Source of the DNA: a virus
Strand: one strand, 5' to 3'
DNA length: 51,710 nt
Virus record (IMG/VR): IMGVR_UViG_3300042352_001329
Span: 1-51,710 of that record
The notes under the pieces were generated by a model, which saw only the letters and a program-made list of their open reading frames with translations, was not told where the DNA came from and did no database searches. Both the position numbers and the translations under genes were made by a program. Positions 298 through 34,970 of this stretch are shown one piece after another. How positions within the stretch are numbered: the stretch's first letter is position 1; the number at the start of each line of letters is the position of its first letter.

Positions 298-885
298 ATG
301 AATACTATTAAAGGATTTTCGCAATGGATCAATGAACAAAACGCCCAAGCTGCGAAAGTGACTCCAGGTGCTGCTCCAGTAAAACCTGAAGGTTACACCC
401 TAAAATCAAATGGAATTGCCTATAAGTACCCATTTGCTGACGATTTGGCTTATGCAAAGTATGTCTATTTCAAAGCTGACCCTGCTAATATTACCGCAGG
501 TGGTGCTTCATTTGATGAAAAATCAGAAAAGGCCGCGCTTATCAGAATTCTACCTAGTCACCAGGACTGGTCAACTGCAACTGATGTTAAAACGGATCCA
601 ACTGGAAACGCAACCCTTGCAAAAGGCTTTGGTACTAAAGTTACAGATTCAGTTGAAAATGCACTTGAATTCCATGCACTAATGGGATTAAAGCAGCCTA
701 TTTCACTTGAAAAAATGGTACAGTCTGCAAAAACTCCAGAAGCTGGTTACCTAGTAGATGACTTTAAAGATTTCTATAATACGCTTGCTGCAATGGATAA
801 AGCTGCAATTGCAGAGTGGAATAAAAACTGGCCAATTATTTGGAAAGAACAGTGCAAACGCGCTGGATTACCATGGGCAGTCTAA
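298..885 (+). CDS. Head-targeted protein of unknown function (CTS-like N-terminus)
   Basis: A 195-residue protein that begins MNTIKGFSQWINE|Q, a leader like the T4 internal-protein capsid-targeting sequence with an I-N-E cut site at residue 13. The rest is soluble, with no membrane segment or family I recognise; the C-terminal half is rich in tryptophan and alanine. A late-type promoter lies just upstream and a strong hairpin follows, so it is a single-gene late unit. Function unknown; the inference is that it is packaged in the head and trimmed by the prohead protease. Confidence 0.8.
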   Translation: MNTIKGFSQWINEQNAQAAKVTPGAAPVKPEGYTLKSNGIAYKYPFADDLAYAKYVYFKADPANITAGGASFDEKSEKAALIRILPSHQDWSTATDVKTDPTGNATLAKGFGTKVTDSVENALEFHALMGLKQPISLEKMVQSAKTPEAGYLVDDFKDFYNTLAAMDKAAIAEWNKNWPIIWKEQCKRAGLPWAV

Positions 886-909
886 TCTAATTCTAACATT
901 CTTAACAAA

Positions 910-934
910 AAAAGGAGACTATAAGTCTCCTTTT
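910..934. terminator. Bidirectional terminator hairpin
   Basis: AAAAGGAGACT (910-920), loop ATA, AGTCTCCTTTT (924-934), flanked by A-runs and T-runs. It separates the plus gene ending at 885 from the converging minus gene ending at 954. Confidence 0.85.
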
Positions 935-953
935 GTATTTTATAGGGATTGGG

Positions 954-1499: not shown

Positions 1500-2138
1500 T
1501 TAGGCAGTTGGCTCAGTAAGACCCAACTTTTTGGCTGCCCATTCAGGACTCTTGTCCGAGTGTTTTCTCCAAAATTCGGTAATGGTTGCACCCTCAGTAG
1601 ACTCTTTATTATAGGTTACTTCACCATGACCCCATACTTCATCTTTGCTATAGCCTAAATACTTTAAGATTTTAAATACCGAAAGGACTTGGATAGGCAA
1701 AACATCTTCGTCATTTTTTGCAATAACCTCTACACCCTGAGCAGTTGCATTTTGTAGATCGGTTGGCGCATCCTTTTGATCTTTATGACCAGCGTGCCAA
1801 GCAATTTTACCCTCTGGAAAAGTTCTAAATATTTTACCCTCACGATCAACTACCCACTGTACGCCAAGATCTCGGCTATTAAGTACTCCAACAACACCCT
1901 CAGCTGTACCATGGCCTGCAGTATGGTGAACCACAAAGTATTTGTCCTTTGTCATAGACTCCATTCCAGACTGCTTAGCTAGATCTGAAATATCCTCTAT
2001 TTCGGTTTCAAAATTTTTCTTGAATTCGGTATCAGATACCTCAGTTTCCTCTGGGGAAACCTCTCCAGTAAAGGCAGATTTTACGCTTGCCGCAATATCG
2101 CCCAACCAGCTTTCAAATAGTTTAACGTGAGTTGGCAT
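1500..2138 (-). CDS. N-acetylmuramoyl-L-alanine amidase (Amidase_2/PGRP-like)
   Basis: 212 residues. The catalytic domain spans about 65-195. FVVHHTAGHG (68-77) supplies the first zinc histidine, WHAGH (114-118) is the typical second motif, and GHGEV (170-174) gives the second zinc histidine, all as in the amidase-2 family that cuts the bond between N-acetylmuramic acid and L-alanine in peptidoglycan. Residues 1-60 form an acidic extension that starts MPTHVKLFE|S, a possible prohead-protease leader (L-F-E). A late-type motif lies upstream and a terminator follows, so it is transcribed alone and late. It is either the lysis endolysin or a packaged wall-degrading enzyme; the leader makes the second option worth testing. 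Confidence 0.88.
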   Translation of the reverse strand: MPTHVKLFESWLGDIAASVKSAFTGEVSPEETEVSDTEFKKNFETEIEDISDLAKQSGMESMTKDKYFVVHHTAGHGTAEGVVGVLNSRDLGVQWVVDREGKIFRTFPEGKIAWHAGHKDQKDAPTDLQNATAQGVEVIAKNDEDVLPIQVLSVFKILKYLGYSKDEVWGHGEVTYNKESTEGATITEFWRKHSDKSPEWAAKKLGLTEPTA

Positions 2139-2542: not shown

Positions 2543-4135
2543 ATGGAAATTAAGAAATACCAAGACTGGTTATTTGAAACTACCAATTATGATCCAGAGT
2601 GTGGATGCACATCAGTTTCAATTATTGAGCAAAGTACGACTACGTCCACTCCCTCTACTGGTGGAGCGGCCTATACCAAATCGGATAAAACCCAAACTTC
2701 GGGTAAAATCCCATTAAATTATTCAGCTGGGTATTATTCAGTTAACCACACAAATAAGAGTGGCCAAGCCTTTGATAATGAAAGCAAAATTAAACCCGAA
2801 TTAGAAAAAGTTATTGAATTTTTAAAAGCTAACCCAGGTTCTTATATTGCAACTGCTAAACTTGTTGTTGGTGAGTCTCTACCTCCAAACTTTGATTCAG
2901 AAGGAGCCGCTGGTTCAACTGTTCCACGACTTAAAGCTAAACAGGGTACGTGGTTAGAAACCGGAGACCTTGCTGATCTTCGTGTTGCTAAATTGGAATC
3001 TTGGTTAAAGACTCAATTAGCACCGCTAAAGTCAGCCGGCATAATAAAACAGGATCCTTATGTAATAAAAGACTTTAGGGATGCTAAAAGCAAAATTGCG
3101 CCAAGTGGCGGTTGGGATGATTATAGAGCTTGGAAAAAGGGTACAGGCGAATGGAAAACCCCAATGGATAATACTACCGAAAAGGGTAAAGAATATACAA
3201 AACTAAAAACCGGATACGATAAAGATCAATTTGCTGAAGTGTATTTACAAATTAGAGCCTATTCTGATCCAAGCTGTCTGTTAGGTATGTGGATTGGTTT
3301 CCATTATGATGTAGCAAACGGTCATAGCTGTAATAATTCTAGATTTGAAATTAAAGCAAATGGCATAACATTAACTACAGTTACTCCGCCAACTAAGAAA
3401 CTTGAAACTAATGTAGATTCAAGTTGGGCCCTACCTGCAGGAATGAAATATGCAAGTTTAAATAATCAAGGTAAAGAAAATGATGAGTATGCGGTTGCAT
3501 ATAAAAGAGAAGATCGTTCAAACTTGGGAGGAAGCGCTTGGCGACTAAACTGGTTTAAAATTAGTGATAAAGCCCTTGCTGATAAAATTATTGCAGCGGC
3601 CGGTCCAGATAAAAATATTAAGATTACTGCAACTTGTATTAAACCTATTACCTACCCAGACGGAAAAATTGGATACGATGGAGTTGGTGGATGTCACACA
3701 ACTGCACCTCACGTCTATGTTTTAAGCAAAGATGAAGTTAAAACGTCAGGCTTCCCAACTTATCCAAATACAAATGATGGAATTATTGCAACAACTGACT
3801 TTTGCGGACGTAACTTAGGAGTTCAAATTACAACCCCTCCTAAAACAAAACCTGATGGTGCACAAGGCGGAGGTTTTCAATTACCAAAAGAAACTGGAAT
3901 TAAATTACTAATAGGTAGCCGAGGTACTCTTTCTGCAGAACAGCGTATTAATAATTTATTAACTGCAAAAACTCTCTATAAAAAACCTGATAGTACATAT
4001 ATTGTATTAAAGGCTTGGACCGAAAATGGTATTTCATATCAAGTCGGAGATGTTATTAATGGTACAATTAAACCTAATGTTAAATATACACCACCACCTA
4101 CTAGAGTTGATGCTGCAACTGCACCTAAAAACTAA
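2543..4135 (+). CDS. Large head-targeted protein of unknown function (CTS-like N-terminus)
   Basis: 530 residues beginning MEIKKYQDWLFE|T, a CTS-like leader with an L-F-E cut site at residue 12. The following 25 residues are a serine/threonine/glycine linker. The body contains no membrane segments and several short tryptophan-rich stretches (about 195-215, and the IGFHYD region near 255). Cysteines occur around 20-22, 250, 268, 365 and 385 but form no clear zinc motif. The C-terminus is proline/threonine-rich. I do not recognise the family. It is a single-gene late unit between a late-type promoter and a strong hairpin. Confidence 0.8.
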   Translation: MEIKKYQDWLFETTNYDPECGCTSVSIIEQSTTTSTPSTGGAAYTKSDKTQTSGKIPLNYSAGYYSVNHTNKSGQAFDNESKIKPELEKVIEFLKANPGSYIATAKLVVGESLPPNFDSEGAAGSTVPRLKAKQGTWLETGDLADLRVAKLESWLKTQLAPLKSAGIIKQDPYVIKDFRDAKSKIAPSGGWDDYRAWKKGTGEWKTPMDNTTEKGKEYTKLKTGYDKDQFAEVYLQIRAYSDPSCLLGMWIGFHYDVANGHSCNNSRFEIKANGITLTTVTPPTKKLETNVDSSWALPAGMKYASLNNQGKENDEYAVAYKREDRSNLGGSAWRLNWFKISDKALADKIIAAAGPDKNIKITATCIKPITYPDGKIGYDGVGGCHTTAPHVYVLSKDEVKTSGFPTYPNTNDGIIATTDFCGRNLGVQITTPPKTKPDGAQGGGFQLPKETGIKLLIGSRGTLSAEQRINNLLTAKTLYKKPDSTYIVLKAWTENGISYQVGDVINGTIKPNVKYTPPPTRVDAATAPKN

Positions 4136-6567: not shown

Positions 6568-6897
6568 ATGAAAGCACAAAACTTTAAACAGTTTGTTAAT
6601 GAAAATGAAGACGATTCAAGCCGAATTGAAGACCGTCTTCGTGATCTAGGCCTTGCTCCCAAAGCGGAATTTGATGAACGCTGGCAAGATATGATTGACG
6701 AATGGGGAAGTGATCCAGAAATTGATCAAGCTCTCCAAACCCTTAGAAGAAAAACTGGCGAAATTATCAATAAACATATTGATTTTGACGATCCAGAGGA
6801 TGAGCAAGAGTGGGATCAGCGTCGCGAATGGATATACGAACAAGGAGCCGACGATCTAGGCGAACTGGAATTAATGATTGTACAAGGTAATTACTAA
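6568..6897 (+). CDS. Small acidic head-targeted protein (CTS-like N-terminus)
   Basis: 109 residues starting MKAQNFKQFVNE|N, a CTS-like leader with a V-N-E cut site at residue 12. The remainder is very acidic and helical, rich in D, E, R and W, with no recognised domain. Small charged proteins with such leaders are typical of T4 internal proteins packaged in the head. It stands alone between minus-strand genes and overlaps the converging gene by 4 nt (6894-6897). Confidence 0.75.
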   Translation: MKAQNFKQFVNENEDDSSRIEDRLRDLGLAPKAEFDERWQDMIDEWGSDPEIDQALQTLRRKTGEIINKHIDFDDPEDEQEWDQRREWIYEQGADDLGELELMIVQGNY

Positions 6898-7183: not shown

Positions 7184-7813
7184 ATGTCATACTTCAAAAA
7201 ATTTGGCGCTTTTATTAATGAAGAAGAATCTTCAGAAGAGAAATTAGCCAAACTTGCTAGATTAAAGGAACTTGGTTTACTTGATACTGATCAATACCGA
7301 GATGATTCCAAACAAATACGAAGAGATGCAATGCTTGCTGCTAAAGACAGAGGAGACTATGCAGGAACAGCTCTTCCAGAAATTAGAGAAGTTCTAGATT
7401 CTCCAGAAGCTCAATTACTTAGAGACAAAGGTCTAGAAGTAGTTTCAAGTCCAACTCAACTCTTAAATGGTACCCTTGTTTGGGCAAAACCTGGTTATAG
7501 AAGATCAGATGGTTGGGGTTTAGGATTTTTTCCTGGCCCAAGTAAAATCCGCCGAATGACTCCAAAAGGAATTAATCTTGGAGTTTGGGGTCGTCGTACA
7601 GGTTCGATGGATGTTGAAATGAAAGCTATCCCAACATCAGCTTATTCAAACGAAACTGAGTTTTATAGAATTGCAATGAAATGGGCAGCTGAACATATTG
7701 ATTGGGACCAATTAGAAATGGCTGAAAAGAAGAGCCGTGAAGCTTGGAGATATTACGTAAAAGGAAAAACTAAACAAGGTTATTTTAACGATGAGAATAA
7801 TAGAATCATTTAA
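7184..7813 (+). CDS. Head-targeted protein of unknown function (CTS-like N-terminus)
   Basis: 209 residues starting MSYFKKFGAFINE|E, a CTS-like leader with an I-N-E cut site at residue 13. A charged helical region follows, then a glycine/tryptophan-rich centre (SDGWGLGFFPGPS near 107-120). No recognised family. It is the first gene of a late operon in which all four genes carry such leaders; its end overlaps the next gene by 23 nt. Confidence 0.78.
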   Translation: MSYFKKFGAFINEEESSEEKLAKLARLKELGLLDTDQYRDDSKQIRRDAMLAAKDRGDYAGTALPEIREVLDSPEAQLLRDKGLEVVSSPTQLLNGTLVWAKPGYRRSDGWGLGFFPGPSKIRRMTPKGINLGVWGRRTGSMDVEMKAIPTSAYSNETEFYRIAMKWAAEHIDWDQLEMAEKKSREAWRYYVKGKTKQGYFNDENNRII

Positions 7814-9422
7814 TAGCTGGAAACGTTCGAGCAGACTCTTAACTGAGAATGTTCAAGCAGCTAAACAATATATGTTAAAACGTTTTGCACAAGCAAAAGG
7901 AATTGAAGTTTCTGAAATTACACCAGAAGATCAAGCCAGAGTTTTTGCAAATGAAGATTATAAAAAAGTTCTTCAATTAATTCAGCCTCTTCCTGGTTAT
8001 GCTGCAACTTTTGTTAGATTCAGATTTGACCACCGAGTTTCATTTGAACAACTACAACAGCTACTTGATAAAATCAAAGCCAATTCCCAATTTCTTGGAG
8101 AATTATCAATTCCAATTATTGAATTTCCGAATCAAGAAAAGGTAAATGGCGTTCCTGCGTTTGAAGCCTTAATGGATGAGTTTAATCAAATTGAAACTCG
8201 TCGTAAAGCAAAATGGATTCTTAATGAATTACCAGGAAATTTACGTAGAGCTGCTAGAGAATTACCAAAAGAAAATTTACAGAGATTATTCAATGCTGCA
8301 ACTATCATGAATGATTTAGGAGATGAGGTTAAAGTTCGTCTCTTAAAGAAAGCCAAGGCATTTACTGATCCAATGGATTTTGTAGTTTATGCTGAAAATT
8401 ATGTTAAAGGTTACTTAAATTCTGATGTTCAAAGTAAGATTAATAAATTAGAAGAGTTAGAGCCAGAAGGTTCTGTAATCTATGCGGACGATCGTTACCT
8501 AATGTTAAGTGCGCGCACAGAAAAAGCGCAAAAGGAATTATGCTCAGTTGCAAACTGGTGTATTAATAGAGGAAGTTTTAATAATCGCCAATACGGTGGA
8601 GGTGCTGTACAAATTAATACATTTGATTTTGGTTTACCTCCAACCGATCCACATCACTTAATTGGAACTACTATTTCTTATGATGGTAAAGTTACATATA
8701 GTCACGATATTAATGACCATAGTGTTAAAACAACTGATGATATTACTAAACATCTTGAAAAGTTTGGCTATCCGGAAAAAATGATTAAGACTCTACTTAC
8801 AGTATTTCCAATTGAGGCAATGATTAAAAAGGTAATTACTGAATTAAATCTTGATAAAAAGTCTCCAATTCAAGTATTAGACTCTGTTATTAAAGCAAGC
8901 TATAAAGTAAATCCAGAAGACGATCAAGAATCTGCAAGAGTAATTCTTAATATCTTAATGGAAAGAATTGCACCAGCAGTTAAAGAAGAAGAGATTATTG
9001 CTCTTTATATGAAGTTTGGTGTAATGTCAATTTTTTCTGCTAAACTATTTAATATGTTACTTCCAAATATCGATCCTCAAACCCGAGCAGAGGTTATTCA
9101 AAATGCAAAAGCAATTTTAGATGAGATTAAAGGTTATGCAAGTACTGGACTATTTAAATATCCACAATTGCTAAATGCCGTTAAGTCTGAGCCTAAAATT
9201 ATAGAACTACTTGGTGAAAGTATTGTAAATGAGTTCTATGCAGCAGAACCTGCAATTAAAGAGCCTACTACTAAACCTAGAGTAACTCCAAGACCAGGTC
9301 CAATTCCAACTAAAAAACCTTCAGTTAAGCCTGAACCAAGCGCAACGGCTGAAGATGTTATTAAAAGATTTGAAATGGAATTAAAAAAATTAGGTACTAC
9401 ACCAAAGGAATTCCTTAAGTAA
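7791..9422 (+). CDS. Large head-targeted protein with WC motif (CTS-like N-terminus)
   Basis: 543 residues starting MRIIESFNSWKRSSRLLTE|N; the first seven residues equal those of the nucleotidyltransferase gene at 20498. Residues 60-240 are helical. ELCSVANWCINRGSF near 256-270, then IGTTISYDGKVTYSHD about 40 residues on, recalls a pattern seen in large phage proteins (WC, then F/Y, then iG..i..dGk), of unknown function. Residues 488-525 are a proline/lysine/threonine linker, followed by a short C-terminal helix. It starts inside the end of the preceding gene, so translation is coupled. No catalytic motif recognised. Confidence 0.78.
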   Translation: MRIIESFNSWKRSSRLLTENVQAAKQYMLKRFAQAKGIEVSEITPEDQARVFANEDYKKVLQLIQPLPGYAATFVRFRFDHRVSFEQLQQLLDKIKANSQFLGELSIPIIEFPNQEKVNGVPAFEALMDEFNQIETRRKAKWILNELPGNLRRAARELPKENLQRLFNAATIMNDLGDEVKVRLLKKAKAFTDPMDFVVYAENYVKGYLNSDVQSKINKLEELEPEGSVIYADDRYLMLSARTEKAQKELCSVANWCINRGSFNNRQYGGGAVQINTFDFGLPPTDPHHLIGTTISYDGKVTYSHDINDHSVKTTDDITKHLEKFGYPEKMIKTLLTVFPIEAMIKKVITELNLDKKSPIQVLDSVIKASYKVNPEDDQESARVILNILMERIAPAVKEEEIIALYMKFGVMSIFSAKLFNMLLPNIDPQTRAEVIQNAKAILDEIKGYASTGLFKYPQLLNAVKSEPKIIELLGESIVNEFYAAEPAIKEPTTKPRVTPRPGPIPTKKPSVKPEPSATAEDVIKRFEMELKKLGTTPKEFLK

Positions 9423-9423
9423 T

Positions 9424-10713
9424 ATGAAAACACTAAAACAATTTTTACAAGAGGCAAGTTTACAGGGAAATCCTGGAACTCCTGGCGAATATTTAAAGGG
9501 AGTTGAGCGTAGAGCAATGCAGGATGTTCAAGGTACAGAACAACGACTTGGCAGAGAAATGGGTCAATTTATGCAGTTTGTTGGACAGGTTCAGCAAATG
9601 CAAACTCCTCAAGTTAAAGCTCAATTAGAAAAACTTGCAGAAGATATTATTATGCAAGAATATGGTTCAATCTTAGGCCAAACTAAATTAATTATAAAAT
9701 TTCCACAACAGGGTCAAATTCAACAAATGATGGAACCAGTTGAAATGGAAACGCCAGAAGACCAAAAAGAAATTACCGATCCAGGTACAATTGCAGCAAT
9801 TAATAAACGTAAATTGGGAAATGCAATTATGCAAGGTGAAGCCAAAAACGCAAAGCGCATGTTAGCTTTACCTGAAACAATGGATGGAATGATTAAAATT
9901 TTTGGACCAGCCGATGCTGCAAAAATGGTAGAGCTTCTTAAGAAAATTACTGATATTGCATCCGCACTCGATTGGAGAATTCCACTTGAAGTTCAAAAAC
10001 AAATGTGGGAAAGAGATAAGAGCGGATTTAGCGGTTCGGTTGATGTTGATTGGAAACCGATTAAGAATGACGAGCAAACTGCTGATGAAATTCTTAAGTC
10101 ATTAGAGAGTGGAGATATTGAAACTCCAGAAATTGAAGATTCTCTTAATGAAATGGAACCTACTATTACTGCATTAGGTACAGACTTTGCAATGTTGTTA
10201 CACGAAACAATTAAAGGTATTTACAAATTAATTGGAGCAGCTGCAATTCCAGAAGACGAAGAAGAGGCTCAAAAAGTTATTGCAAATACTGGAACTCTTA
10301 GCGATGAATTAGAAGATTTAAGATACGGCCCTTATTTAGCAGCAGATCTTAGAGATTTTGTAAATCGTTTTACTGAAAGAGTTGAGATTGAAAATATTAG
10401 AGAACATGTATTTGGTAAACTAATGCAAATGGAGTCTACTCAATTTTTACAACTAATGAAAGAGATCTTTAGTGAAGATGCTGGAGCAACTGCTAAAATG
10501 AAAGAAATTATTTCAGAAATTGAACAAGAAATAAGCGATTGGGAAAGAAGTCAATTTGATGAAGAGGTTCCAGATTTTGGAATCGAGCCTTCACAAAGCG
10601 AACCTGCTGACCTATCACAATTAAGTAAAAAAGAAATCCAAACCCTAATTGATGCTGCACTAGATGCAGGTGATTATGCTGAGGTTGGAAAACTTGCAAA
10701 ATATTTAGATTAA
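9424..10713 (+). CDS. Head-targeted helical protein (near-perfect T4-like CTS)
   Basis: 429 residues. The start MKTLKQFLQE|A is very close to the T4 internal-protein leader (MKTYQEFIAE|A) with cleavage after L-Q-E at residue 10. The body is acidic, glutamine- and methionine-rich, and almost entirely helical, without membrane segments. LLHETIKGIYKLIG near 258-271 is a distinctive central helix. The C-terminal 40 residues form another helical hairpin. Its length and helicity would suit a prohead core or internal head protein. It begins 1 nt after the preceding stop codon and ends 1 nt before the next gene. Confidence 0.8.
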   Translation: MKTLKQFLQEASLQGNPGTPGEYLKGVERRAMQDVQGTEQRLGREMGQFMQFVGQVQQMQTPQVKAQLEKLAEDIIMQEYGSILGQTKLIIKFPQQGQIQQMMEPVEMETPEDQKEITDPGTIAAINKRKLGNAIMQGEAKNAKRMLALPETMDGMIKIFGPADAAKMVELLKKITDIASALDWRIPLEVQKQMWERDKSGFSGSVDVDWKPIKNDEQTADEILKSLESGDIETPEIEDSLNEMEPTITALGTDFAMLLHETIKGIYKLIGAAAIPEDEEEAQKVIANTGTLSDELEDLRYGPYLAADLRDFVNRFTERVEIENIREHVFGKLMQMESTQFLQLMKEIFSEDAGATAKMKEIISEIEQEISDWERSQFDEEVPDFGIEPSQSEPADLSQLSKKEIQTLIDAALDAGDYAEVGKLAKYLD

Positions 10714-10714
10714 T

Positions 10715-11365
10715 ATGAAAATTCAAAGATTTAACCAATTTATAAATGAAAGTGAAGGTTATTTAGATGAACCATCTAATGAATTAGCTAATGAACTTTT
10801 ACAAAAAATTGCAGAGGGTATGAATAACTCAAGTAGTTATATGGTACACTTAGACGAAAAAAACAGTACACTCCATATTGATCAAGATTGGAATGTTGAT
10901 GACCTAAACTTTCAAGGTGAAGAGCCTAGAGTTTATGCAAGCTATGCAGTTAGGCTTAAACTTGCTTTTGAAGATGATGAGTCTCAATTATCACCAGAAT
11001 TAGTTAGGCTTTGGAAATTAGGATTAGCGCCAATTACTGACTTAATTAAAGGGTTTGATCATTCATGGGCATTTAGTGTTGATTCAAAGGACGTTCCACA
11101 ATTGGAAATTATGGAAGGCGATTTAAGTTCATACGAATTTATATCAATTGAAGATCTTACTGGCGGCACTATGGATAATTTAGACGATATTGATGCTTTT
11201 TGTAATGAAATTGAAGAAACTCTTAATGGTTGGTTAGATGAACAAACTTACATGCTATATGATAGAGTTCAAGAAGAATTAGATATGATTGCTGGAGAAG
11301 ACGAGGATGATGAGGAAGAGGATGAAGAGTTTGATGATAATGGAGAATATTCCGATGAGGATTAA
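10715..11365 (+). CDS. Acidic head-targeted protein (CTS-like N-terminus)
   Basis: 216 residues starting MKIQRFNQFINE|S, a CTS-like leader with an I-N-E cut site at residue 12. The body is acidic, ending in a tail of about 30 residues that is almost all D and E. Such tails occur in scaffold/core proteins and DNA mimics. No family recognised. Last gene of the late operon that begins at 7184; two hairpins follow. Confidence 0.78.
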   Translation: MKIQRFNQFINESEGYLDEPSNELANELLQKIAEGMNNSSSYMVHLDEKNSTLHIDQDWNVDDLNFQGEEPRVYASYAVRLKLAFEDDESQLSPELVRLWKLGLAPITDLIKGFDHSWAFSVDSKDVPQLEIMEGDLSSYEFISIEDLTGGTMDNLDDIDAFCNEIEETLNGWLDEQTYMLYDRVQEELDMIAGEDEDDEEEDEEFDDNGEYSDED

Positions 11366-12667: not shown

Positions 12668-13519
12668 ATGCAAAACATGCAAGTTAGACAATTTATAGAC
12701 TGGGTATCTGAAGCAATGGCTCCAGCCAAAACATATACAAAAAAGCTTTCTGAGTTAAATCCACAGCGTAAATACGTAGGTGATACTTATAATACTGATC
12801 TTTTTTTAAGATTTAAACATCTAGCTTCAATTCGTGATAAGCACGGAAAGAGGATTGGAGTTGAAAAATGGTTTGAGCTTGCTCAATTAGAAGATAAGGG
12901 CTTCTATTCAGCTGTGTTAGCTGATCAAATGGGACAACCTGATGTAAGGGAACTTTGGAGAGATATGATGGGTCGTAATGCAAGTAAAGTTAAAGGTCAA
13001 GTTAATTTTAAGGATCCATTTAAAGGAAGCGAAGATACTGAGGATGAAGTTAGAGATTTAAGTTTAAGCGAAAGTGTTGAAGAGCCTATCACTGCACCTT
13101 CTCAATTAGATTCGGCATGGACTCTAGTTATTACCTATCCAAACGATAAGTTATATGATACAGCTTCCCCATATTTTGAAAAACTTGGAATTGCTTTTGC
13201 AAATTTAGAAAATCAAACAATCTATTTCGATGGAGCCGAGGTTAGCGAAGCATATTTTACAAAGGACCATATGCTTGCAATTGAAGCACATGAAATTGGC
13301 CATTCTATTGCAAATCATAAAGGCGAACCATACTATTCAAAAAGACAAGAACAGGAAGCAGATTGGCTTGGAATTAATTTATTAATCCAATATAATAAAA
13401 CAAAGGCTGGAAATTTATTAGCTGAAAGATTTAGTCAACACTATGGCATGGCGTATACTGACTTACCTAATTCAGAGGAGCTTACCGAGCTCCTAGAAGA
13501 TTATCTGTCAGATAAATAA
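12668..13519 (+). CDS. Head-targeted HEIGH zinc metallopeptidase (CTS-like N-terminus)
   Basis: 283 residues. The leader MQNMQVRQFIDWVSE|A fits the CTS pattern with a V-S-E cut at residue 15; a second ATG at 12677 would give the tighter form MQVRQFIDWVSE. Residues 25-130 are a helical region. The catalytic domain near 150-260 has EAHEIGHSIANH with HEIGH at 208-212 and EQEAD at 228-232, giving the third zinc ligand in the way of M48-like and ImmA-like peptidases. It is probably packaged and may cut a host protein on entry, which is inference. Late-type promoter upstream; a small membrane protein gene follows. Confidence 0.8.
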   Translation: MQNMQVRQFIDWVSEAMAPAKTYTKKLSELNPQRKYVGDTYNTDLFLRFKHLASIRDKHGKRIGVEKWFELAQLEDKGFYSAVLADQMGQPDVRELWRDMMGRNASKVKGQVNFKDPFKGSEDTEDEVRDLSLSESVEEPITAPSQLDSAWTLVITYPNDKLYDTASPYFEKLGIAFANLENQTIYFDGAEVSEAYFTKDHMLAIEAHEIGHSIANHKGEPYYSKRQEQEADWLGINLLIQYNKTKAGNLLAERFSQHYGMAYTDLPNSEELTELLEDYLSDK

Positions 13520-19438: not shown

Positions 19439-20498
19439 CTAATAGTTTATTACTAACATACTCGAATGCAGTTTCAGCATCATGCATTACTTTATCTTTC
19501 TGTTGGTTAGCTAAATCAGTTAAGGCTTTATCGTATTTAGATGAAGTTCTGTGTTTATGTAATTTTTGTGCATAAATCTTAACCACTTCTTCTAAAAATT
19601 CCTTTGAACTATTATACTTAAAATTTGGTAAATCGTATGTACCAGTTTTTTCAAGAGTTCTGGCAAACCCTAAGATCCCATTACAAATTTGTTCCAATGA
19701 AAGTTCAGAAACATCTATTCCAGGATGCTCATTTAAATATTCATCAATAACAATTTCTCGTTTTGTTCCAGCAAATTCATCAACGAATTCGGCAAGATGC
19801 AGGATAAATTTAGAAAAATCTCTTGTAATAATTTTTTCCTCAACGTCTTTGCGCATATTAGGTCCAACTAATTCTCCATTTTTAATTTTAGCAACTACTC
19901 CACGATCAGTAACTGATACATCTAGTGCATTGCCAAATGATTGATATAGAAATCCTACAACAAAACCTTTTAGTCCTCTAATTGGAGTATATCGAGCTTT
20001 TGCCCATTGCGCTGAATAAGTAAAGGTTGGAATAATATCAACTTGAACAGGTCCATCTTTTAAATTAATTACTAATTTAAGACTACCGTCAGAAATTGCA
20101 TCGCTCTCTTCTGCATCAATTTCAGGCTGTGGATTTTCTTGAATCCATTTTAACATAAGCTGATTGTACTCTTTCATAGTATCAATTTCAACTCTTCTGG
20201 ATTGAGGCTCAGTTAGTGGATATTCAACTAAAATATCAACATCACCATATGCTTTTTCTGGATTTTCAGCAAGGTCCTGTTTATAATAAACGCCAGATCC
20301 GCCTGGACCAAGAACTTTTAATGGAGCCATTTCTAAAGACTCTGCATATTGATTAAATTTAGAAAAAATATTTTCTAAGACTGACACTGACTCTTCCAAT
20401 ACGGCCGGTGTAATTTTAGTCCCCTGAGTTTTAGTGGTTGCCCAACCTCCCATTTCCTGTATTTTTAAAAATCCCTGAAAAGATTCAATAATTCTCAC
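19422..20498 (-). CDS. Head-targeted nucleotidyltransferase-fold protein (CTS-like N-terminus)
   Basis: 358 residues. The start codon is GTG (20496-20498), chosen because it gives the leader MRIIESFQGFLKIQE|M with an I-Q-E cut at residue 15. The catalytic core has VLGPGGSGVY (62-71), YGDVDILVEY (84-93) and VQVDIIPTF (about 150-158), the GS...DxD...D pattern of the polymerase-beta nucleotidyltransferase superfamily. The C-terminal half is helical. Such enzymes transfer NMP to proteins, RNA or small molecules. The leader suggests packaging; the late motif lies inside the downstream end of the HAD gene. It heads an operon with the phosphoesterase and nuclease. Confidence 0.8.
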   Translation of the reverse strand: MRIIESFQGFLKIQEMGGWATTKTQGTKITPAVLEESVSVLENIFSKFNQYAESLEMAPLKVLGPGGSGVYYKQDLAENPEKAYGDVDILVEYPLTEPQSRRVEIDTMKEYNQLMLKWIQENPQPEIDAEESDAISDGSLKLVINLKDGPVQVDIIPTFTYSAQWAKARYTPIRGLKGFVVGFLYQSFGNALDVSVTDRGVVAKIKNGELVGPNMRKDVEEKIITRDFSKFILHLAEFVDEFAGTKREIVIDEYLNEHPGIDVSELSLEQICNGILGFARTLEKTGTYDLPNFKYNSSKEFLEEVVKIYAQKLHKHRTSSKYDKALTDLANQQKDKVMHDAETAFEYVSNKLLDGTNI

Positions 20499-20514: not shown

Positions 20515-20526
20515 TAGTTATTTATC
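20515..20526 (-). promoter_or_regulatory. Late-type promoter motif
   Basis: Minus-strand GATAAATAACTA, 12 of 12 bases of the consensus; GATAAATAAC ends 18 nt before the GTG start at 20498. It overlaps the stop region of the HAD gene. Confidence 0.7.
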
Positions 20527-21075
20527 GAAACCTAGTTTCTTTAGCTCTGCAATTGTTTCCTTGGCACTAGTGTGTAAAATACCAGTCCCTCCAGCTGCAA
20601 CCCAGGCATCCAATTTTTTTGGAGTATCATCAATTAAGATATCACCAGGCCCAGTTGCAAATTCAAATTTATTACCATAAAAAATTGTTCTTTCTTTACC
20701 AGTCCAATCTTCCCTTTTTGTAATATAGGGAAAGTCCCAATTTAAATTTTTCTTTAGCCATTTAGCTTTACCTGTAATTGACTTTGGATCAAGAGATGGT
20801 GATGATAAAATAGTAGGACTGTATTTTTGGATAAAACTCCAAAGATCAATTCCATCTGGCATCCATTCCATATTTGCCCAAAATGCCTCACCAGCTTTTC
20901 CAACAAGTTTCCAACTTGCGTTTTTTGAATTTTCCTTTTGGAATTGTTCAATAGGCATTCCCGCCTCTCTTTCAAACTGTGAATCCCAATCCGAAAGTAC
21001 TCCATCCATATCGCAAAAAATTCGCATAGGCTGAACACTCTCAGTAAATAGTGTGTATGGTTTAATGTGCTGCAT
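20518..21075 (-). CDS. HAD-family 5'(3')-deoxyribonucleotidase with CTS-like leader
   Basis: 185 residues from the chosen start at 21075. The start 48 nt upstream is rejected because it overlaps the glycosylase gene and spoils the leader; from 21075 the protein begins MQHIKPYTLFTE|S. MRIFCDMDGVLSDW (17-30) holds the DxDGV nucleophile, SSPS is motif II, a conserved lysine follows, and LIDDTPKKL is motif IV. This matches the NT5C-type nucleotidases that dephosphorylate (deoxy)nucleotides. The leader implies packaging, but there is no well-spaced late promoter; an ATAAATA is only 4 nt upstream. Confidence 0.82.
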   Translation of the reverse strand: MQHIKPYTLFTESVQPMRIFCDMDGVLSDWDSQFEREAGMPIEQFQKENSKNASWKLVGKAGEAFWANMEWMPDGIDLWSFIQKYSPTILSSPSLDPKSITGKAKWLKKNLNWDFPYITKREDWTGKERTIFYGNKFEFATGPGDILIDDTPKKLDAWVAAGGTGILHTSAKETIAELKKLGFDK

Positions 21076-21949: not shown

Positions 21950-22378
21950 ATGATTTACAATTTCAAAGATTTCGTTACTAAGGTTGACGAAAACGTAAAC
22001 TCAGCAGAGTTTTTAAACAAATTTGGCTTGACTGAAGAAGAAGATGCTGCGGCTGCTGATGCTCCAGTTGAAGACGATATGCCTAAAGAAGATGAGGCTC
22101 CATCTGAAGATGAAGCATTAGAAGCTTTCAAAAAAGAACACCTTGATGTAATGTTCAATGAACTTTCATCTGATGATTTCGATTCATTTTACTCTAGCGA
22201 ATTTAAAGAGTGGAAAGAAATGGAAGATGGTGAAGAAAAAGAAGCTAAGAAAGAAGAAATCCTTAACAAAATCAAGGATATGTTCCAATTAAGCACTGAA
22301 GAAAAAGAAGAGGCTCCAGCTGAAGACGAAGATGCACCAGCTGACGAACCTGCTGCTGAAGAAGCTCCAGAAGCATAA
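21950..22378 (+). CDS. Highly acidic head-targeted protein (CTS-like N-terminus)
   Basis: 142 residues starting MIYNFKDFVTKVDE|N, with a V-D-E cut site at residue 14. Most of the rest is D, E, A and P, in two low-complexity acidic blocks around a helical segment (about 60-110). It could be a prohead core component, an internal DNA-mimic protein or a space-filler for the head. Acidic composition and late promoter agree with this; nothing enzymatic is seen. It opens a three-gene late operon with the two membrane proteins after it. Confidence 0.78.
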   Translation: MIYNFKDFVTKVDENVNSAEFLNKFGLTEEEDAAAADAPVEDDMPKEDEAPSEDEALEAFKKEHLDVMFNELSSDDFDSFYSSEFKEWKEMEDGEEKEAKKEEILNKIKDMFQLSTEEKEEAPAEDEDAPADEPAAEEAPEA

Positions 22379-29096: not shown

Positions 29097-29579
29097 CTAT
29101 TCGATAGTTTCAATCAAACGCTGAGCAATTATCTGTTGAGAACGGGATAATTTATCAATAGCTTCTTGAATTGGAATAAATCCAGCCCAATCTACCTCTT
29201 CGGCTTGTAGTTGTTCTTTAGGTACTTTCGGCGAAGCAAGGCCAATTTGTTCAAGACTCTCAATGTATACCTCAAAATAAGCGCAGCGAGAGTGAGGAAT
29301 ACCGCGACGGTAAAATACAAAATATTTCTCATTTTTATCAATTAGTTCTGGATTTACCGTAACCCCGGTCTCTTCTCTAGTTTCACGAATTGCACAAGTT
29401 AGAAGATCTTCGCCTGGTTCAATTCCGCCTTTGGGAATTCCAAACGGTTGATTCTTCCAACTTGCGTTCGATGGATGAATTAATAAAAGTTTTCCTTCCC
29501 AGATAATAGCTAGGCCGGCCGCTCTAATTTCAAGCTGCTTTTCGCTTTCTGCTAAATAATCTGTGAATGTAAAAATCAT
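29097..29579 (-). CDS. Head-targeted Nudix hydrolase (CTS-like N-terminus)
   Basis: 160 residues. The leader MIFTFTDYLAE|S has an L-A-E cut site at residue 11. The Nudix box runs from G51 to V73 (GGIEPGE at 51-57, RETREETGV at 65-73), complete for metal binding and catalysis. The family cuts diphosphates linked to nucleosides or sugars (NDP-X, capped RNA, ApnA and others). It overlaps the bS21 gene by 4 nt and is the last gene of the late operon that starts at 34970. Packaging is inferred from the leader and the operon. Confidence 0.85.
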   Translation of the reverse strand: MIFTFTDYLAESEKQLEIRAAGLAIIWEGKLLLIHPSNASWKNQPFGIPKGGIEPGEDLLTCAIRETREETGVTVNPELIDKNEKYFVFYRRGIPHSRCAYFEVYIESLEQIGLASPKVPKEQLQAEEVDWAGFIPIQEAIDKLSRSQQIIAQRLIETIE

Positions 29580-29770
29580 TTGTTTAATTCATCTTTCTTT
29601 TTTTGAATATACTTTGCTTTATTAATTTCGCTACGACGCTTCACGCTAGGCTTTTCAAATTCTTTACGATCTCTTAAAAGTTGCAATTGCTTAGTATCAG
29701 CAACCTTTCTTTTTAATTGTTTAAGAGCTCTTTCTAAAGACTCTGAATTTCGTATATCGATTATTAGCAT
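29576..29770 (-). CDS. rpsU: Phage-encoded ribosomal protein bS21
   Basis: 64 residues. The pattern I-x-IR-x-SESLERALKQLKRK, then LRDRKEFEKPSVKRR and a basic tail KAKYIQKKKDELNK matches bacterial bS21 throughout, most like Bacteroidota forms. bS21 sits at the 30S platform near the 3' end of 16S rRNA. In Flavobacterium it is reported to help occlude the anti-Shine-Dalgarno. Phage copies exchange for the host protein and may bias initiation. It is translationally coupled to the Nudix gene (ATGA) and begins 1 nt below the stop codon of the late gene before it; no Shine-Dalgarno is present. Confidence 0.9.
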   Translation of the reverse strand: MLIIDIRNSESLERALKQLKRKVADTKQLQLLRDRKEFEKPSVKRRSEINKAKYIQKKKDELNK

Positions 29771-29771: not shown

Positions 29772-31016
29772 TTATGATAATTCTAACATTTTCTTAGCGC
29801 CATCTGAAATAGTTCCTCTTAGTGCAGCGCTAAATAATTGTACAATTTTTCCTGCTTCTGGGGAATCTACTTCATCTGCAATCGCAGCATCTACTCCAAG
29901 CTTTGTATCAATAATACCAAGCGTTTGTAAGTCTTTCCAAGCAGTTTCAACATTTAATAATCCCTTTGGAGTTAATACCATAACTGCCATAATTGCATTA
30001 ACTTCTTCATCAGCAGAAACCCAACTATCATCAATTATTGACCAAATTGTTTCTGCCCATTTTTTAGCATCATCTCCAACTGGTTCATATGAAACCAATG
30101 AATTTGCAGAAGGGACTTTGCTTTTTAAATATTGTGTGTCCTCATCACCTTCCGACGCCCAATCTGGATTCCAATTCAAGATTCTATCCATTACTCGACC
30201 GGCAGGTTTTCCACCAATGAATGGAGCATATCCAAAATCTCCCCAAGTCCATGCATCCATTTCCGCGTATGTACTAGCTGCATCTTGTGTAAACATATCC
30301 CAATAGTCATCTTTACCAAATGCTGCGACTAAGAATTTTTTTGCAGCGTCTGCATTTAGATTATTCTGAATAATCCAGTATATTGCAGCTTCGGTTGCAT
30401 TATGCACAACATCTTCATTTGAGTTTGACCAATAGTTAGCATTTGCTCTAATTGCAGCCGAAACTGTTTGAGCAACACTTTTTTCCTTATCGGCCGCACT
30501 TGTACTCGATGGCAAGTTTGATTTTGGCTGTTTAGTAGTCGGATCGATTGCAAATTTTCCAGATGCAATATCAATAACTTCAGATATTTTACCATCTGTA
30601 CTTTTTGTCGTAATCTCTTTATCAGTTATTGAATAAGTTCCAGAATAGGCGACCTTTCCGCTTCCATCATTAATATAAACGACTACCGTTAGAGGTTTTG
30701 ATCTAAAATTATATGAGCGACCTGCTGATAAAATATCAATGCTTACGCCATTTTCCTTTTCAGGTTTTTCTTCAGTAGCATTGTATACACTAGCTAGCCT
30801 AGTGTTAGGCATCTTTAGAAGTTTATCCATGATTGCTTGATCTAGCGCAGTCGTAGCAACAGCAGGCGGTGGAGTTTCCGTTGTAGGGTCTTCTTTAATT
30901 GTAGTAAGCTTAGGATTAGTATTAGTAGCAGGAGGGGTCTTTGTTGCATTAACACCACGTCCGCCTGAACCATCTTGTTCATTAATAAAATCCTTAAATG
31001 TTTTAATAACTCGCAT
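29772..31016 (-). CDS. Head-targeted protein of unknown function (CTS-like N-terminus)
   Basis: 414 residues starting MRVIKTFKDFINE|Q, with an I-N-E cut at residue 13. A disordered T/P-rich linker runs to about residue 60. A small beta domain (about 85-150) is followed by a second S/T/K-rich linker and a helical C-terminal domain rich in tryptophan (about 190-414). No family or active site recognised. It lies in the operon 34970-29097 and has an additional late-type motif upstream. Confidence 0.78.
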   Translation of the reverse strand: MRVIKTFKDFINEQDGSGGRGVNATKTPPATNTNPKLTTIKEDPTTETPPPAVATTALDQAIMDKLLKMPNTRLASVYNATEEKPEKENGVSIDILSAGRSYNFRSKPLTVVVYINDGSGKVAYSGTYSITDKEITTKSTDGKISEVIDIASGKFAIDPTTKQPKSNLPSSTSAADKEKSVAQTVSAAIRANANYWSNSNEDVVHNATEAAIYWIIQNNLNADAAKKFLVAAFGKDDYWDMFTQDAASTYAEMDAWTWGDFGYAPFIGGKPAGRVMDRILNWNPDWASEGDEDTQYLKSKVPSANSLVSYEPVGDDAKKWAETIWSIIDDSWVSADEEVNAIMAVMVLTPKGLLNVETAWKDLQTLGIIDTKLGVDAAIADEVDSPEAGKIVQLFSAALRGTISDGAKKMLELS

Positions 31017-31032: not shown

Positions 31033-31042
31033 AATATTTATT
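31033..31042 (-). promoter_or_regulatory. Late-type promoter motif
   Basis: Minus-strand AATAAATATT, ending 16 nt before the ATG at 31016; an internal promoter of the operon. Confidence 0.45.
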
Positions 31043-32387
31043 AAATTGTTGCTTTTTGTAGAGATTGTTCAATTTCAGTTTTAACTGCATCATTAAAACT
31101 TCCACCATTTTTTATACCAAATAGGTATGAACAAATATCCTTAAATCCTTGTGAATTGTAGGATTTTCCATGTTCAAATGGACCTTTTTTGGAAATAGCA
31201 TCAAGACAATTTTGATAGACGTTGCCACCCATAATAGATTTTAACATATCTCTAACGCCAGAATCTGTAGCTAAATCAAATTTATTACCGGGATTTGGGA
31301 AATCTGCTGGAAATCTAGCTATAACACCAGATGCAATTTTTAATAGATCTGCTTCATTTTTAATTGATGTATCAGAGGTTGTAGTTTGATTAACTGGATT
31401 AACTACAGGAGCAACTGTTCCACCAGCTTCAGCTAATGCTACCTTTAACGGCTTTTCAACTAAAGTTGGAACAACTTCATTTTCAATATTAGATTGAACT
31501 ATACGTTTGGCATTTAGACAAATAATAATCCACGCTTCAACCATAGTTTTAAATAATCCACTAGAAAGTTCTGACGTATTGGGCGCTGCATAATTACTAT
31601 CATACTTTCCAGCCATGCTAATAAGCTTAGCAATCATTGAGCTCAAATCAGTTGTATATTGAGTTGGATTACCTGGAACACCAAGCGAAAAATCTGCAGG
31701 TGGCAAACTTACCATAAAGCTCCAAAAAATTGGAGAAATTTTTCCAGTTTGATTAACCAATTGAGTTTGTCCACCAATTGATTGTAGTATAGGTTTAATA
31801 TAAACCTGGTGAACAAACTGGCGATACCAATCAGATGCCGTTCCATCTATATCCAAGAAATATGAAGCAGTTATTGCAGCAGATTGATTCGATCCAGCAG
31901 TTGAGCTTGTAGTTTGTGTAGATGGTGTAGATTTTGCATAATACTGTGATGCATCTTCTGATGACATTGCAAAAGCAAAATGATCTTCGATCTTTGGTAA
32001 GTGCTTATCTTTTGGGATAAGTGCTATATCAATCTTTCCAGGTTTAAATAGAAAAATACTACCTGAGGTTTCAGCTAAATCTTTACCAAACATTCTATTG
32101 TTTTGAGTATTACCGGGTTTTTGGAATATTCCAAGTACTGTATCTTTTCCACTCTCATCAAGCGTATCTAGTAGAGAATCTGTGGTTTTATGTTCTAGTG
32201 ACTTTATTGCATTTGCAAAATTTTCAACATTACCTAAAAGCTGATTATCTTGTGGCCAACTGTATTGATATGTCCATTTAACTAAAATTTCGTCAGTTGG
32301 TGAAGATTGCGAACCAGTTATTTTAATCTTAGTTTTAGAAAAGTCAAATTTCTCAAACAGATTTGATAGTTTATAAAGTTTTTTCAT
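31041..32387 (-). CDS. Head-targeted protein of unknown function (CTS-like N-terminus)
   Basis: 448 residues starting MKKLYKLSNLFE|K, with an L-F-E cut at residue 12. The protein is mostly helical, with two low-complexity S/T-rich linkers (about 155-170 and 335-350). FLDIDGTASDWYRQF near 178-192 superficially recalls a HAD motif I but lacks the rest. The C-terminus has a KKGPFEHGKSYNSQGF stretch. No family recognised. It follows the giant 858-residue protein by 6 nt and must share its transcript. Confidence 0.75.
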   Translation of the reverse strand: MKKLYKLSNLFEKFDFSKTKIKITGSQSSPTDEILVKWTYQYSWPQDNQLLGNVENFANAIKSLEHKTTDSLLDTLDESGKDTVLGIFQKPGNTQNNRMFGKDLAETSGSIFLFKPGKIDIALIPKDKHLPKIEDHFAFAMSSEDASQYYAKSTPSTQTTSSTAGSNQSAAITASYFLDIDGTASDWYRQFVHQVYIKPILQSIGGQTQLVNQTGKISPIFWSFMVSLPPADFSLGVPGNPTQYTTDLSSMIAKLISMAGKYDSNYAAPNTSELSSGLFKTMVEAWIIICLNAKRIVQSNIENEVVPTLVEKPLKVALAEAGGTVAPVVNPVNQTTTSDTSIKNEADLLKIASGVIARFPADFPNPGNKFDLATDSGVRDMLKSIMGGNVYQNCLDAISKKGPFEHGKSYNSQGFKDICSYLFGIKNGGSFNDAVKTEIEQSLQKATI

Positions 32388-32393
32388 ATAATA

Positions 32394-34970
32394 TTAGTAC
32401 ATCATTTTCAATAAATCTTCCTTAGTAACTCCCATACCAAAGAAATCTGGAGTATAGGTTGGATTTTTATCCAATTTAGCAAGTTCGCGTTTAATTCGAT
32501 CTGCTTCGTATGGAGATGGATAAAAACTAATTGCACCAGTTGTTATAGTATTACCAACCGTACGTTTATAATTAGTTTCATAGCTAGATAAAGATTTTTT
32601 AACATCGCTCTTTACATCTGCATATGAAACATCATTTACTGTAATTGCACCAAGTAGATACCATAAACCTCCATAGGTAATATCTTCTTCTATTCTAGCC
32701 TCTGCAACTTCAATTGGAGTTGCATCAGCCGGTAATTTTACCAACATACCAGCAGATGAAATAACTGGAGAAATTCCAACTGCAGCTAAAGTACCGTCTA
32801 CTTCTTCTTGATTTCTGATCGAAGCTTCGCTAGAAGCACCAGCTGCTGCAAATGTTTCCCTTGGTCCAGCTTTAGCCAATGCGCTATCTGAAGGTGGAAA
32901 TGATGCAGTTAATGCAAGATCATCTGCTATTTTATTAATGTGACTTTTACATACATCAACATAGCTTAAAGGTCCAAGCACCGCATTTCTTTTTCCAGTA
33001 GGTTTAGCCTTTAGGTCATTAAGCTGTTGGTCTAATTCAGAAGATACTGAATTTTCTTTAGCGTCAATAGGTTCAGCTGCGTCTTGTTCCATTAAAAACT
33101 TTGGTCTAGATAAAATAAATTTGTAAGATTCATTTTTTGGAAGAGCCCCTGGTGAAAACTTCATAAGTAAAGCTTCAAGACCTCCAACATTACCTTGACC
33201 AAGATCTGCAATCGGGCAACGCATAGGTGCGCCGATTAAGTTTTTTAATATAATAAGTTTATTTCTAAATACTCTAGCTGCTCTAATAGATTGTGACCAC
33301 TTTCCTCCAATTTTTGCAATATCATCAAAGTGTTTAATTGCAGCTTGACCGGATTTGGCAATATCTACATATACTTCTGGATTTTTTGCAAGTAGTCTAT
33401 ACATGCCAACTACACCTGGACCAGCTTCTTCTAATTTAGCAAGGGTTTTAGGATTTGCTAAAATACCATTAAAGAACTTACTTAATTTTGCTGGATCGTC
33501 TGAAATTTCAGTAATTAATCTAGCACTAAAGTGTGCGCCCTTTGTTGTTGCAATTTCAGCAGCATTTCCAGTTAATCTAACTAAGTCTTCTGCTGGAATA
33601 TCATCAAGTTTTTTTACTCCAGCAAATAGCATTTCTGCTTTACGGCCTTCTATCCAAAGAGGCTTCATTTCCTTTAATTTAACAATATCTTCTGCTGTAA
33701 CTGGTACACCTTTAACCTGTTTAACTTCAGTCCAAGCTTTAACATAATCATCATAGCCAGCACTCAATGCCTTTTCAATTGTTTTTGCATCTTTCTTAAG
33801 AAGGTCATCTGCAATTTTAACATTTGCATCTAGCACATCAATTAAGCGGCCATTCTTTACAAATTGACCTGCTCCAGGCAATCCCTTTTCAATTCTAGTT
33901 TGAAGAATTCCTTCTAATCTTGTTACTTCAGCAGTATTTCCTGCAGCTTTGGCTGCAGTCAATTCATCTCCTAATTTAGTAATTAAACCTGCATTCGCAT
34001 CTACTACCTTTGATGCATCGCCAGCTTTGATTGCAGCGGTAATATCATCTGATCCTTTTGATATTAAATTAATATCATCAATTGCTGAATCTAAGTTTTT
34101 AGTGATTGGTGTAATTGCACTATCTAACCAAGCACCTAATTTCTTTCCAAGACCGCCAAATACAATACTAACTGGCCAAGTTCTAAGAATTGCTTCAAAG
34201 AAACGTCCAACTGCTTTTGCAATTGCAACAAACATAGATGCAACTGGCTTAGCAACTTTCATAATCTCCATAAATTTAGATAAGGTATCTGGGGATTCTT
34301 TTGCTAAAGCTTTTACTAAACCTTTATCAGCCTTTCCAGTCTTAAATGCAACCTCAGCAATTTTATTAATTTTGCTAAAGCCCTTTCCTAATTTTATCGT
34401 TTTTGCAAGATCTCCAATTCCAGGAATAACTGCAGCGATTGTACTAATTAAAGCTGAGCCGTATTGTCCTTCGAACAAATACATTATTGCGTTAAGTCCA
34501 TCAAATACCATACCGGCAGTTAATGGTGGAACGATTGGTATATCAAATAATCCAAGTATATCTAAAAGTAAATGGATAATTCCAGAAGGGGAACCATCTT
34601 CAGTTAGAGCATTCCAAATAGAACGTAGACTATCAAAAAAGTCTTCATTAACTGAATAATATTGATCAAGTACTGACTCAATTTTAAAATTTGATTCGGT
34701 GAATAGCGTTACCCCGCTTGTTCCCATTGCATATAAAATATGCTCTAATTTAGATTCTTCGGTAAAGCCAGCTGACTCTAACTCAGAAGAGTATTTTTGG
34801 GAGTTTTCAATAAACTCATCAGAAACTGATTCTGGCAAAACCGGTTGGATTTTGTCCAGCATTTCCATTAGGTCTGCACCAATTTCATTTAGAAATTCAA
34901 GTGCTGGATTTGCAAAAGTTGATTCATTAATTAGAAACTGATCTCTGCTTAAAATATATTTTGATGCCAT
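32394..34970 (-). CDS. Giant head-targeted protein with internal second leader and pre-toxin-like region
   Basis: 858 residues. The leader SKYILSRDQFLINE|S ends at E16. Residues about 130-195 (IPIVPPLTAGMVFDGLNA then YLFEGQYGSALISTI and IPGIGDLAK) resemble the hydrophobic pre-toxin region of polymorphic toxins. The middle (200-600) is an alanine/lysine-rich helical region. Around 615-628, SYKFILSRPKFLME|Q nearly repeats the N-terminal leader, and a different C-terminal region (629-858) follows. The protein may be cut into two pieces or be a fusion of two cargo genes. A late-type promoter is 21 nt upstream. Exact function unknown. Confidence 0.8.
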   Translation of the reverse strand: MASKYILSRDQFLINESTFANPALEFLNEIGADLMEMLDKIQPVLPESVSDEFIENSQKYSSELESAGFTEESKLEHILYAMGTSGVTLFTESNFKIESVLDQYYSVNEDFFDSLRSIWNALTEDGSPSGIIHLLLDILGLFDIPIVPPLTAGMVFDGLNAIMYLFEGQYGSALISTIAAVIPGIGDLAKTIKLGKGFSKINKIAEVAFKTGKADKGLVKALAKESPDTLSKFMEIMKVAKPVASMFVAIAKAVGRFFEAILRTWPVSIVFGGLGKKLGAWLDSAITPITKNLDSAIDDINLISKGSDDITAAIKAGDASKVVDANAGLITKLGDELTAAKAAGNTAEVTRLEGILQTRIEKGLPGAGQFVKNGRLIDVLDANVKIADDLLKKDAKTIEKALSAGYDDYVKAWTEVKQVKGVPVTAEDIVKLKEMKPLWIEGRKAEMLFAGVKKLDDIPAEDLVRLTGNAAEIATTKGAHFSARLITEISDDPAKLSKFFNGILANPKTLAKLEEAGPGVVGMYRLLAKNPEVYVDIAKSGQAAIKHFDDIAKIGGKWSQSIRAARVFRNKLIILKNLIGAPMRCPIADLGQGNVGGLEALLMKFSPGALPKNESYKFILSRPKFLMEQDAAEPIDAKENSVSSELDQQLNDLKAKPTGKRNAVLGPLSYVDVCKSHINKIADDLALTASFPPSDSALAKAGPRETFAAAGASSEASIRNQEEVDGTLAAVGISPVISSAGMLVKLPADATPIEVAEARIEEDITYGGLWYLLGAITVNDVSYADVKSDVKKSLSSYETNYKRTVGNTITTGAISFYPSPYEADRIKRELAKLDKNPTYTPDFFGMGVTKEDLLKMMY

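Follow-up and report, generated by a model that had tools for sequence, protein, structure and literature searches.

Putative T4-type capsid-targeting leaders on about sixteen unrelated proteins of a large-phage genome fragment

The virus DNA fragment analysed here (51,710 nucleotides; the whole stretch is called the window, and G000 among the genomes compared) raises the question why numerous proteins with otherwise unrelated sequences begin with one and the same type of short leader. Apart from these genes the fragment carries genes for terminase subunits, PhoH, a sigma factor, and ribosomal protein S21 (bS21). The initial annotation listed 17 leader genes and compared them with the T4 internal head proteins. 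All 17 starts exist, their translations are as written there, and together the genes cover about 34% of the window length; about 16 of them (10 canonical leaders and 6 variants backed by an orthologue or a promoter) could be upheld, while the gene at 32387 is doubtful. Judging from sequence, these approximately 16 unrelated proteins are very probably packed alongside the DNA in the virus head by means of the leader.

A terminase search provided the genomes for comparison, namely close relatives of up to 217 kb (G001, whose terminase is 96% identical) and more distant relatives of 253–271 kb with 68–69% identity (G004, G005, and G006). The capsid protein of G001 is nearest to those of uncultured huge phages and Prevotella Lak phages, followed by other Bacteroidota and Sphingomonas phages. 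The putative host is a freshwater member of Bacteroidota, with which the bS21 gene and the lake-phage literature, as far as the excerpts of PMC9723584 extend, are in accord.

The leader genes of the window and their orthologues

The genes are named below by their start coordinate; the residue following the leader is given in brackets.

298..885, plus strand: canonical leader MNTIKGFSQWINE (then Q) on a 195-residue cargo without known function; late-type box
1500..2138, minus strand: amidase with the variant leader HVKLFESWLGD, in which D replaces E
2543..4135, plus strand: canonical leader MEIKKYQDWLFE (then T) on a 530-residue cargo without known function; late-type box
6568..6897, plus strand: canonical leader MKAQNFKQFVNE (then N) on a small acidic cargo; late-type box
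7184..7813, plus strand: canonical leader MSYFKKFGAFINE (then E) on a cargo without known function; late-type box; first gene of the run 7184–11365
7791..9422, plus strand: variant leader FNSWKRSSRLLTE on a 543-residue cargo without known function; orthologue support
9424..10713, plus strand: canonical leader MKTLKQFLQE (then A) on a 429-residue cargo conserved across the clade
10715..11365, plus strand: canonical leader MKIQRFNQFINE (then S) on an acidic cargo
12668..13519, plus strand: canonical leader MQVRQFIDWVSE (then A) on a putative zinc metallopeptidase with an HEIGH motif; late-type box
16270..18087, plus strand: canonical leader MHKSFLDLVLE (then S) on a 605-residue cargo without known function; late-type box
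19422..20498, minus strand: GTG-started variant leader VRIIESFQGFLKIQE; GATAAATAACT box
20518..21075, minus strand: variant leader MQHIKPYTLFTE (YTLFTE, then S) on a 5'-deoxyribonucleotidase
21950..22378, plus strand: variant leader MIYNFKDFVTKVDE (FKDFVTKVDE) on an acidic cargo; late-type box; conserved in G001
29097..29579, minus strand: canonical leader MIFTFTDYLAE (then S) on a NUDIX hydrolase
29772..31016, minus strand: canonical leader MRVIKTFKDFINE (then Q) on a cargo without known function; late-type box
31041..32387, minus strand: doubtful leader MKKLYKLSNLFEKF without the canonical motif; G001 orthologue MKTIKNITALFEQ
32394..34970, minus strand: variant leader KYILSRDQFLINE (SRDQFLINE, then S) on an 858-residue protein; late-type box; conserved in G001
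33087..33119, minus strand: internal leader-like copy FILSRPKFLME in the 34970 protein (residues 618–628)

The strict pattern [FYW]xx[FWYL][ILV]xE within residues 2–22 was present in 9 of the 74 called window ORFs, where 0.4 matches on average are expected from shuffled N-termini and 0.3 from internal segments (maximum 3 over 200 rounds), an N-terminal excess with a Poisson probability of about 5e-10. A leader profile trained solely on nine window leaders retrieved 13 to 20 genes in G001, G005, and G006 at a score of at least 10 bits (0.4 to 0.8 expected), and 18, 23, and 27 genes, respectively, at a score of at least 7 bits. A leader-like N-terminus was also noticed on the DNA ligase (27178 in the window, 217832 in G006); since the surrounding sequence is conserved in both phages with no break past the E, it was rejected as a likely false match that is part of the ligase itself.

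Grouping of the cargo by its mature part gave 59 unrelated families from six phages. The E of the leader lies mostly at residues 10–16, and in relation to it F/Y stands at -6 in 55 of the 59 families, F/W/Y at -3 in 49, I/L/V at -2 in 56, E at 0 in 58, and S/A at +1 in 33, with information at these five positions and almost none from +2 onward, the strength of columns -7 to +1 being partly circular because they served for family selection. Outside the selected columns K at -8, I/L/V at -9, and the absent signal from +2 on were recorded; as the selection used the same columns, the independent support is the N-terminal enrichment against shuffled and internal segments. In an alignment of 89 leader proteins only M1 and E13 were near invariant, with a mean column identity of 5%.

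The family data bear on the explanation that the leader is a relic of one duplicated gene family with no present function. Some neighbours indeed stand in tandem (e.g., 7184–11365), but the 59 mature families are unrelated, and the leader is retained in most orthologues at identities of 27–47%, including the 298 cargo, which is missing from the near relative G001 and was found in G006 at 47% identity together with its leader. This explanation, already disfavoured by sequence data, is thus extremely improbable.

Similar retention was observed for the orthologues of 2543 (just 37% identity in G001), 9424 (40% in G006), 10715 (30% in G006), and 16270 (29–30% in G005 and G006), and for the metallopeptidase at 12668 (phrog_87 metallo-protease match, 3e-4) in G005 and G006. 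The 6568 leader is intact in the G001 and G006 orthologues and degenerate in that of G005, and the NUDIX orthologue in G006 has lost its leader. Several variants are canonical elsewhere: the G005 orthologue of 7791 starts with MKHIQLYESWIFE (LYESWIFE), and the 21075 nucleotidase (phrog_2643 match, 9e-30, beginning at residue 15) has canonical leaders in G005 and G006, while its homologues in Atu_ph07 and XacN1 are leaderless and start directly at the catalytic motif. In the NUDIX hydrolase the leader is outside the homologous domain (NUDIX 2e-15, residues 20–143). For 20498 the frame of the leader, behind an upstream stop, stays open in G001 (GTG) and in G006 (TTG, followed by SFTDFLQINE) too, with a promoter box at both the window and the G006 gene; the cargo gave no family match of its own and, to judge by its sequence, is possibly a nucleotidyltransferase. 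At the 31016 position G001 and G002 encode shorter proteins that align over about 65 N-terminal residues only, which is consistent with a cargo swapped behind a retained leader (compare the review of T4 internal proteins). Leader cargos did not diverge significantly faster than the remaining genes (p = 0.09).

Correspondence with the T4 internal proteins

In experiments with T4 IPIII targeting was attributed mainly to residues 4 and 7 and processing to residues 8 and 10, and D at position 10 stopped processing with targeting unaffected (PMC9026906). In MKTYQEFIAE these four positions are Y, F, I, and E, and they coincide with the fixed columns of the leader. Since the 2138 leader ends in D, its cargo, an N-acetylmuramoyl-L-alanine amidase (Amidase_2 7e-10, residues 66–175), is predicted by analogy with the T4 data to be targeted and left uncut; the LFESWLGD sequence is retained in G001.

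When the window-trained profile was applied to 265 T4 ORFs, IpII and IpIII occupied ranks 2 and 3; a mechanical ORF where nrdD is split came first, and gp61.1 (MKTFKEFIKED) fourth. The top site for this profile inside T4 gp23 was E65, which agrees with the known 65-residue propeptide.

The box ATAAATA, a sequence proxy for a late-type promoter, lies no more than 60 nt upstream of 9 of the 12 profile-called window leader genes versus 5 of the 62 others (p = 3e-6), and the trend was repeated in G001, G005, and G006 (p = 8e-6, 2e-4, and 5e-5, respectively). The three profile-called leader genes without the box follow closely behind other genes on the same strand. An ATAAATA box stands upstream of the variant leaders 2138 and 20498 as well, and two of three protease genes and the tail-tube-like genes have one too. 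In sequence it resembles TATAAATA, the core of T4 late promoters.

In leader length, the four key positions, the (I/L)-x-E cut rule, and the late-type box the system is like that of T4 IPI, IPII, IPIII, and Alt, which bear a capsid-targeting sequence (CTS) cut by gp21, and the relatives of the window possess an S77 protease and a gp23-type capsid protein as well. Unlike T4, which has a handful of leaders, about 16 are present here in 51.7 kb and about 18–27 per long relative; the cargos include enzymes (NUDIX, nucleotidase, lysins, and metallopeptidase), and the scaffold in the relatives is fused to the protease and built of 14-residue repeats bearing the motif. The T4 interpretation of the initial annotation has thus gained support from the IPIII mutant positions, the recovery of IpII and IpIII, the late-type box, and the protease and capsid genes of the relatives. 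With high probability the leader represents a T4-type capsid-targeting propeptide in an expanded system of this type, whose proteins would be made late, bound to the scaffold, enclosed, cut by the S77 protease, and delivered with the DNA.

One may object that (I/L)-x-E by itself is the T4 gp21 cut rule and that several cargos of lysin type, with PHROG matches to tail lysozymes, might belong to the tail, so that the leader would be a generic prohead-protease cut site on proteins entering the virion by other means, e.g., as components of tail or baseplate. The aromatic positions, which in T4 matter for targeting and not for cutting, are, however, about as conserved as the I, if less than the E, and the leader is N-terminal and also borne by soluble enzymes (NUDIX and nucleotidase, for example), which makes a generic cut site improbable.

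Protease, capsid, and scaffold repeats

The 51.7 kb window fragment contains no gp21-like protease. Each of the four longest relatives (G001, G004, G005, and G006; 217–271 kb) encodes a gp21-type S77 protease, and in G001, G005, and G006 its gene adjoins that of a gp23-type capsid protein (PF07068, up to 3e-49), which is also off the window fragment; the Pfam values for the G001 pair are 3e-12 (Peptidase_S77) and 9e-48 (Gp23). The gene order in these three genomes is DnaJ-like protein, protease, capsid, and then a small basic leader protein with 22–28 K+R versus 9–14 D+E. No strong leader-type site stands out in the three capsid proteins, only (I/L)NE at about residue 53. An S77 protease alone does not imply the leader system, since PTm1 possesses one and shows no clear leader excess.

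The protease protein of the relatives extends for about 450 residues further, and in this tail a 14-residue unit of the type IxYSEYLAENLxK recurs in tandem about nine times, every copy containing Y-x-x-Y/H-(I/L/V)-(A/G)-E or a sequence close to it. The repeats are still there in a homologue of 34% identity (L205) and partly in LR756500. In a low-confidence structure model of the scaffold (pLDDT 44, too weak for a fold search, as was that of the 7791 protein with pLDDT 57) the repeats are predicted to be helical. As Y is almost always used in the repeats, a naive frequency profile was too narrow and was replaced by one with BLOSUM pseudocounts. This repeat-only profile placed T4 IpII and IpIII at ranks 1 and 2 and retrieved 7–8 genes per relative, mostly leaders, against 1–3 expected, which is a moderate recovery; in the window just two leaders passed the same cut-off, the top match being that of the 29579 NUDIX hydrolase.

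These results also bear on the reading of the leader as an amphipathic N-terminal helix, or as a regulatory tag, with another purpose (at the membrane, on the host RNA polymerase, or in a phage compartment) and a chance likeness to the T4 CTS. Short hydrophobic N-terminal helices are common, but the leader motif recurs in tandem in the protease-scaffold fusion, the T4 internal proteins were recovered by profiles built without them, the late-type promoter is common to leader genes and virion-type genes, and the small basic protein encoded next to the capsid gene bears the leader; a tag of this kind is accordingly very improbable.

For the capsid-targeting propeptide the following course of events may be proposed. 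The leader proteins would be late products that attach via the two aromatic residues to the core of the prohead scaffold, and they would be enclosed as the shell forms; the S77 prohead protease would cut past (I/L/V)-x-E and free the cargo, which may stay with the DNA and be delivered to the next host cell. Since the scaffold repeats share the Y-x-x-Y-(I/L/V)-x-E motif, the leader probably mimics one repeat, and the cargo would join the core thereby. For a broader proposal the chances are about even: the leader of a cargo would copy a single scaffold repeat, about nine such units would make up the rod-like fusion, and any late protein bearing a unit would join the core and be cut by the same enzyme; lineage flavours (MKYIxxYEEFLLE in LR756500, MKTLTQLYEA in PAU) would then belong to a head-loading code that is open and swappable and serves 20 or more proteins in large phages. 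LR756500 gives a hint that leader and scaffold flavours go together within a lineage. What is new here is the scale, the enzyme cargo, the protease-fused scaffold of leader-like repeats, and the ATAAATA box on the leader genes.

Cargo functions and other phages

Family matches among the 89 leader proteins included NUDIX, deoxyribonucleotidase, phage lysozyme, amidase, VanY, CHAP, polynucleotide 3'-phosphatase, HNH endonuclease, metallopeptidase, and leucine-rich repeats. Most cargos had no family in Pfam and PHROGs, and PADLOC gave weak matches only. If the targeting interpretation is true, the set of head-carried proteins of a large phage could be listed from sequence, genome by genome, with genes of unknown function included; T4-type targeting would obtain a concrete model, in which the cargo imitates a scaffold repeat, and the stock of parts with which phage heads can be loaded would become larger.

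The lack of a leader suggests in turn that a protein is not loaded by this route. An example is bS21, whose gene (29576–29770) lies within the run of leader genes and whose product is without a leader. The bS21-encoding freshwater Bacteroidetes phages have this gene in common with the window, and bS21 was reported there with terminase, capsid, and protease genes; the excerpts of that study describe no N-terminal leader and contain the suggestion that the head might enclose bS21 (PMC9723584), an idea which, given the leaderless bS21, the window does not back.

In other known systems the correspondence is partial. An N-terminal signal of P1 DarB suffices to put a foreign protein into the head, and, unlike the leader here, the N-termini of the P1 Dar head proteins have no common consensus (PMC9024508). 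Neither strict nor loose leader matches were found in lambda, T7, and the half of the P1 genome searched. In SPN3US and phiKZ several head or ejection proteins are cut after x-E by a T4-related protease, which is similar to (I/L/V)-x-E here; they differ in propeptides of mostly more than 100 residues, in A-x-E (SPN3US), and in most head proteins being uncut (PMC5694885, PMC10052503).

In the literature searched no virion proteome of a leader-bearing phage was found, PAU and immuto included. LR756500 contains 20 leader matches (3.9 expected), mostly of its MKYIxxYEEFLLE type, and the Sphingomonas phage PAU has no leader of the strict type and 18 genes starting with MKTLTQLYEA or similar. In the Chryseobacterium phage MA9V-2 six matches were found (1.4 expected), and its capsid protein itself starts with the leader-type site RWSEFINE (then A).

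The second leader-like copy within the 34970 protein, FILSRPKFLME, was overlooked in the initial annotation; the G001 orthologue has FILSRSQFLLE instead, and the copy is possibly an internal processing site.

Leader-like starts in other phage genomes

In Sphingomonas phage PAU (L141 and L156-L166) 18 genes begin with MKTLTQLYEA or a similar sequence, many of them adjoining the PAU head genes, and this start is a second flavour of the leader. In phage PTm1 the prohead protease-scaffold fusion carries scaffold repeats of a different kind, SEGIEKWILES-like, from those in the window's relatives, and no leaders matching these repeats were seen in the PTm1 genome. When T4 open reading frames were ranked with the profile trained on the window leaders, gp61.1, annotated as hypothetical, ranked directly after the internal head proteins IpII and IpIII; it is possibly a head protein of T4 that has not been recognised as such.

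L143 4231-5925: PTm1 protease-scaffold
L137 (AF158101) 18966-19130: T4 gp61.1, begins MKTFKEFIKED

Ribosomal protein bS21 among the leader genes

29576-29770, minus strand: bS21 (PF01165, 7e-15)

Leader genes lie on both sides of this window gene. The bS21 protein itself lacks a leader, and this argues against the leader route as a way for it to enter the head.

A second promoter-like box and two protein segments

Many non-leader window genes are preceded by a second promoter-like element, TAGTATATTA or GGTATAATA, possibly the marker of an early gene class; its exclusion from leader genes was not significant.

Upstream of 1397, 2449, 4566, 6521, 7112, 21883, 23927, 25425, 26266, 29059, 36977: box TAGTATATTA or GGTATAATA
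38788-41238, minus strand: 816-aa probable virion protein, intein/Hint-like match in a C-terminal stretch (PF14890, 0.0016, weak, below the cut-off)
11968-12207, minus strand: 79-aa basic segment

The last segment starts at an internal methionine of a 207-aa protein with the leader-like sequence MRCSDFIILEKKRAE.
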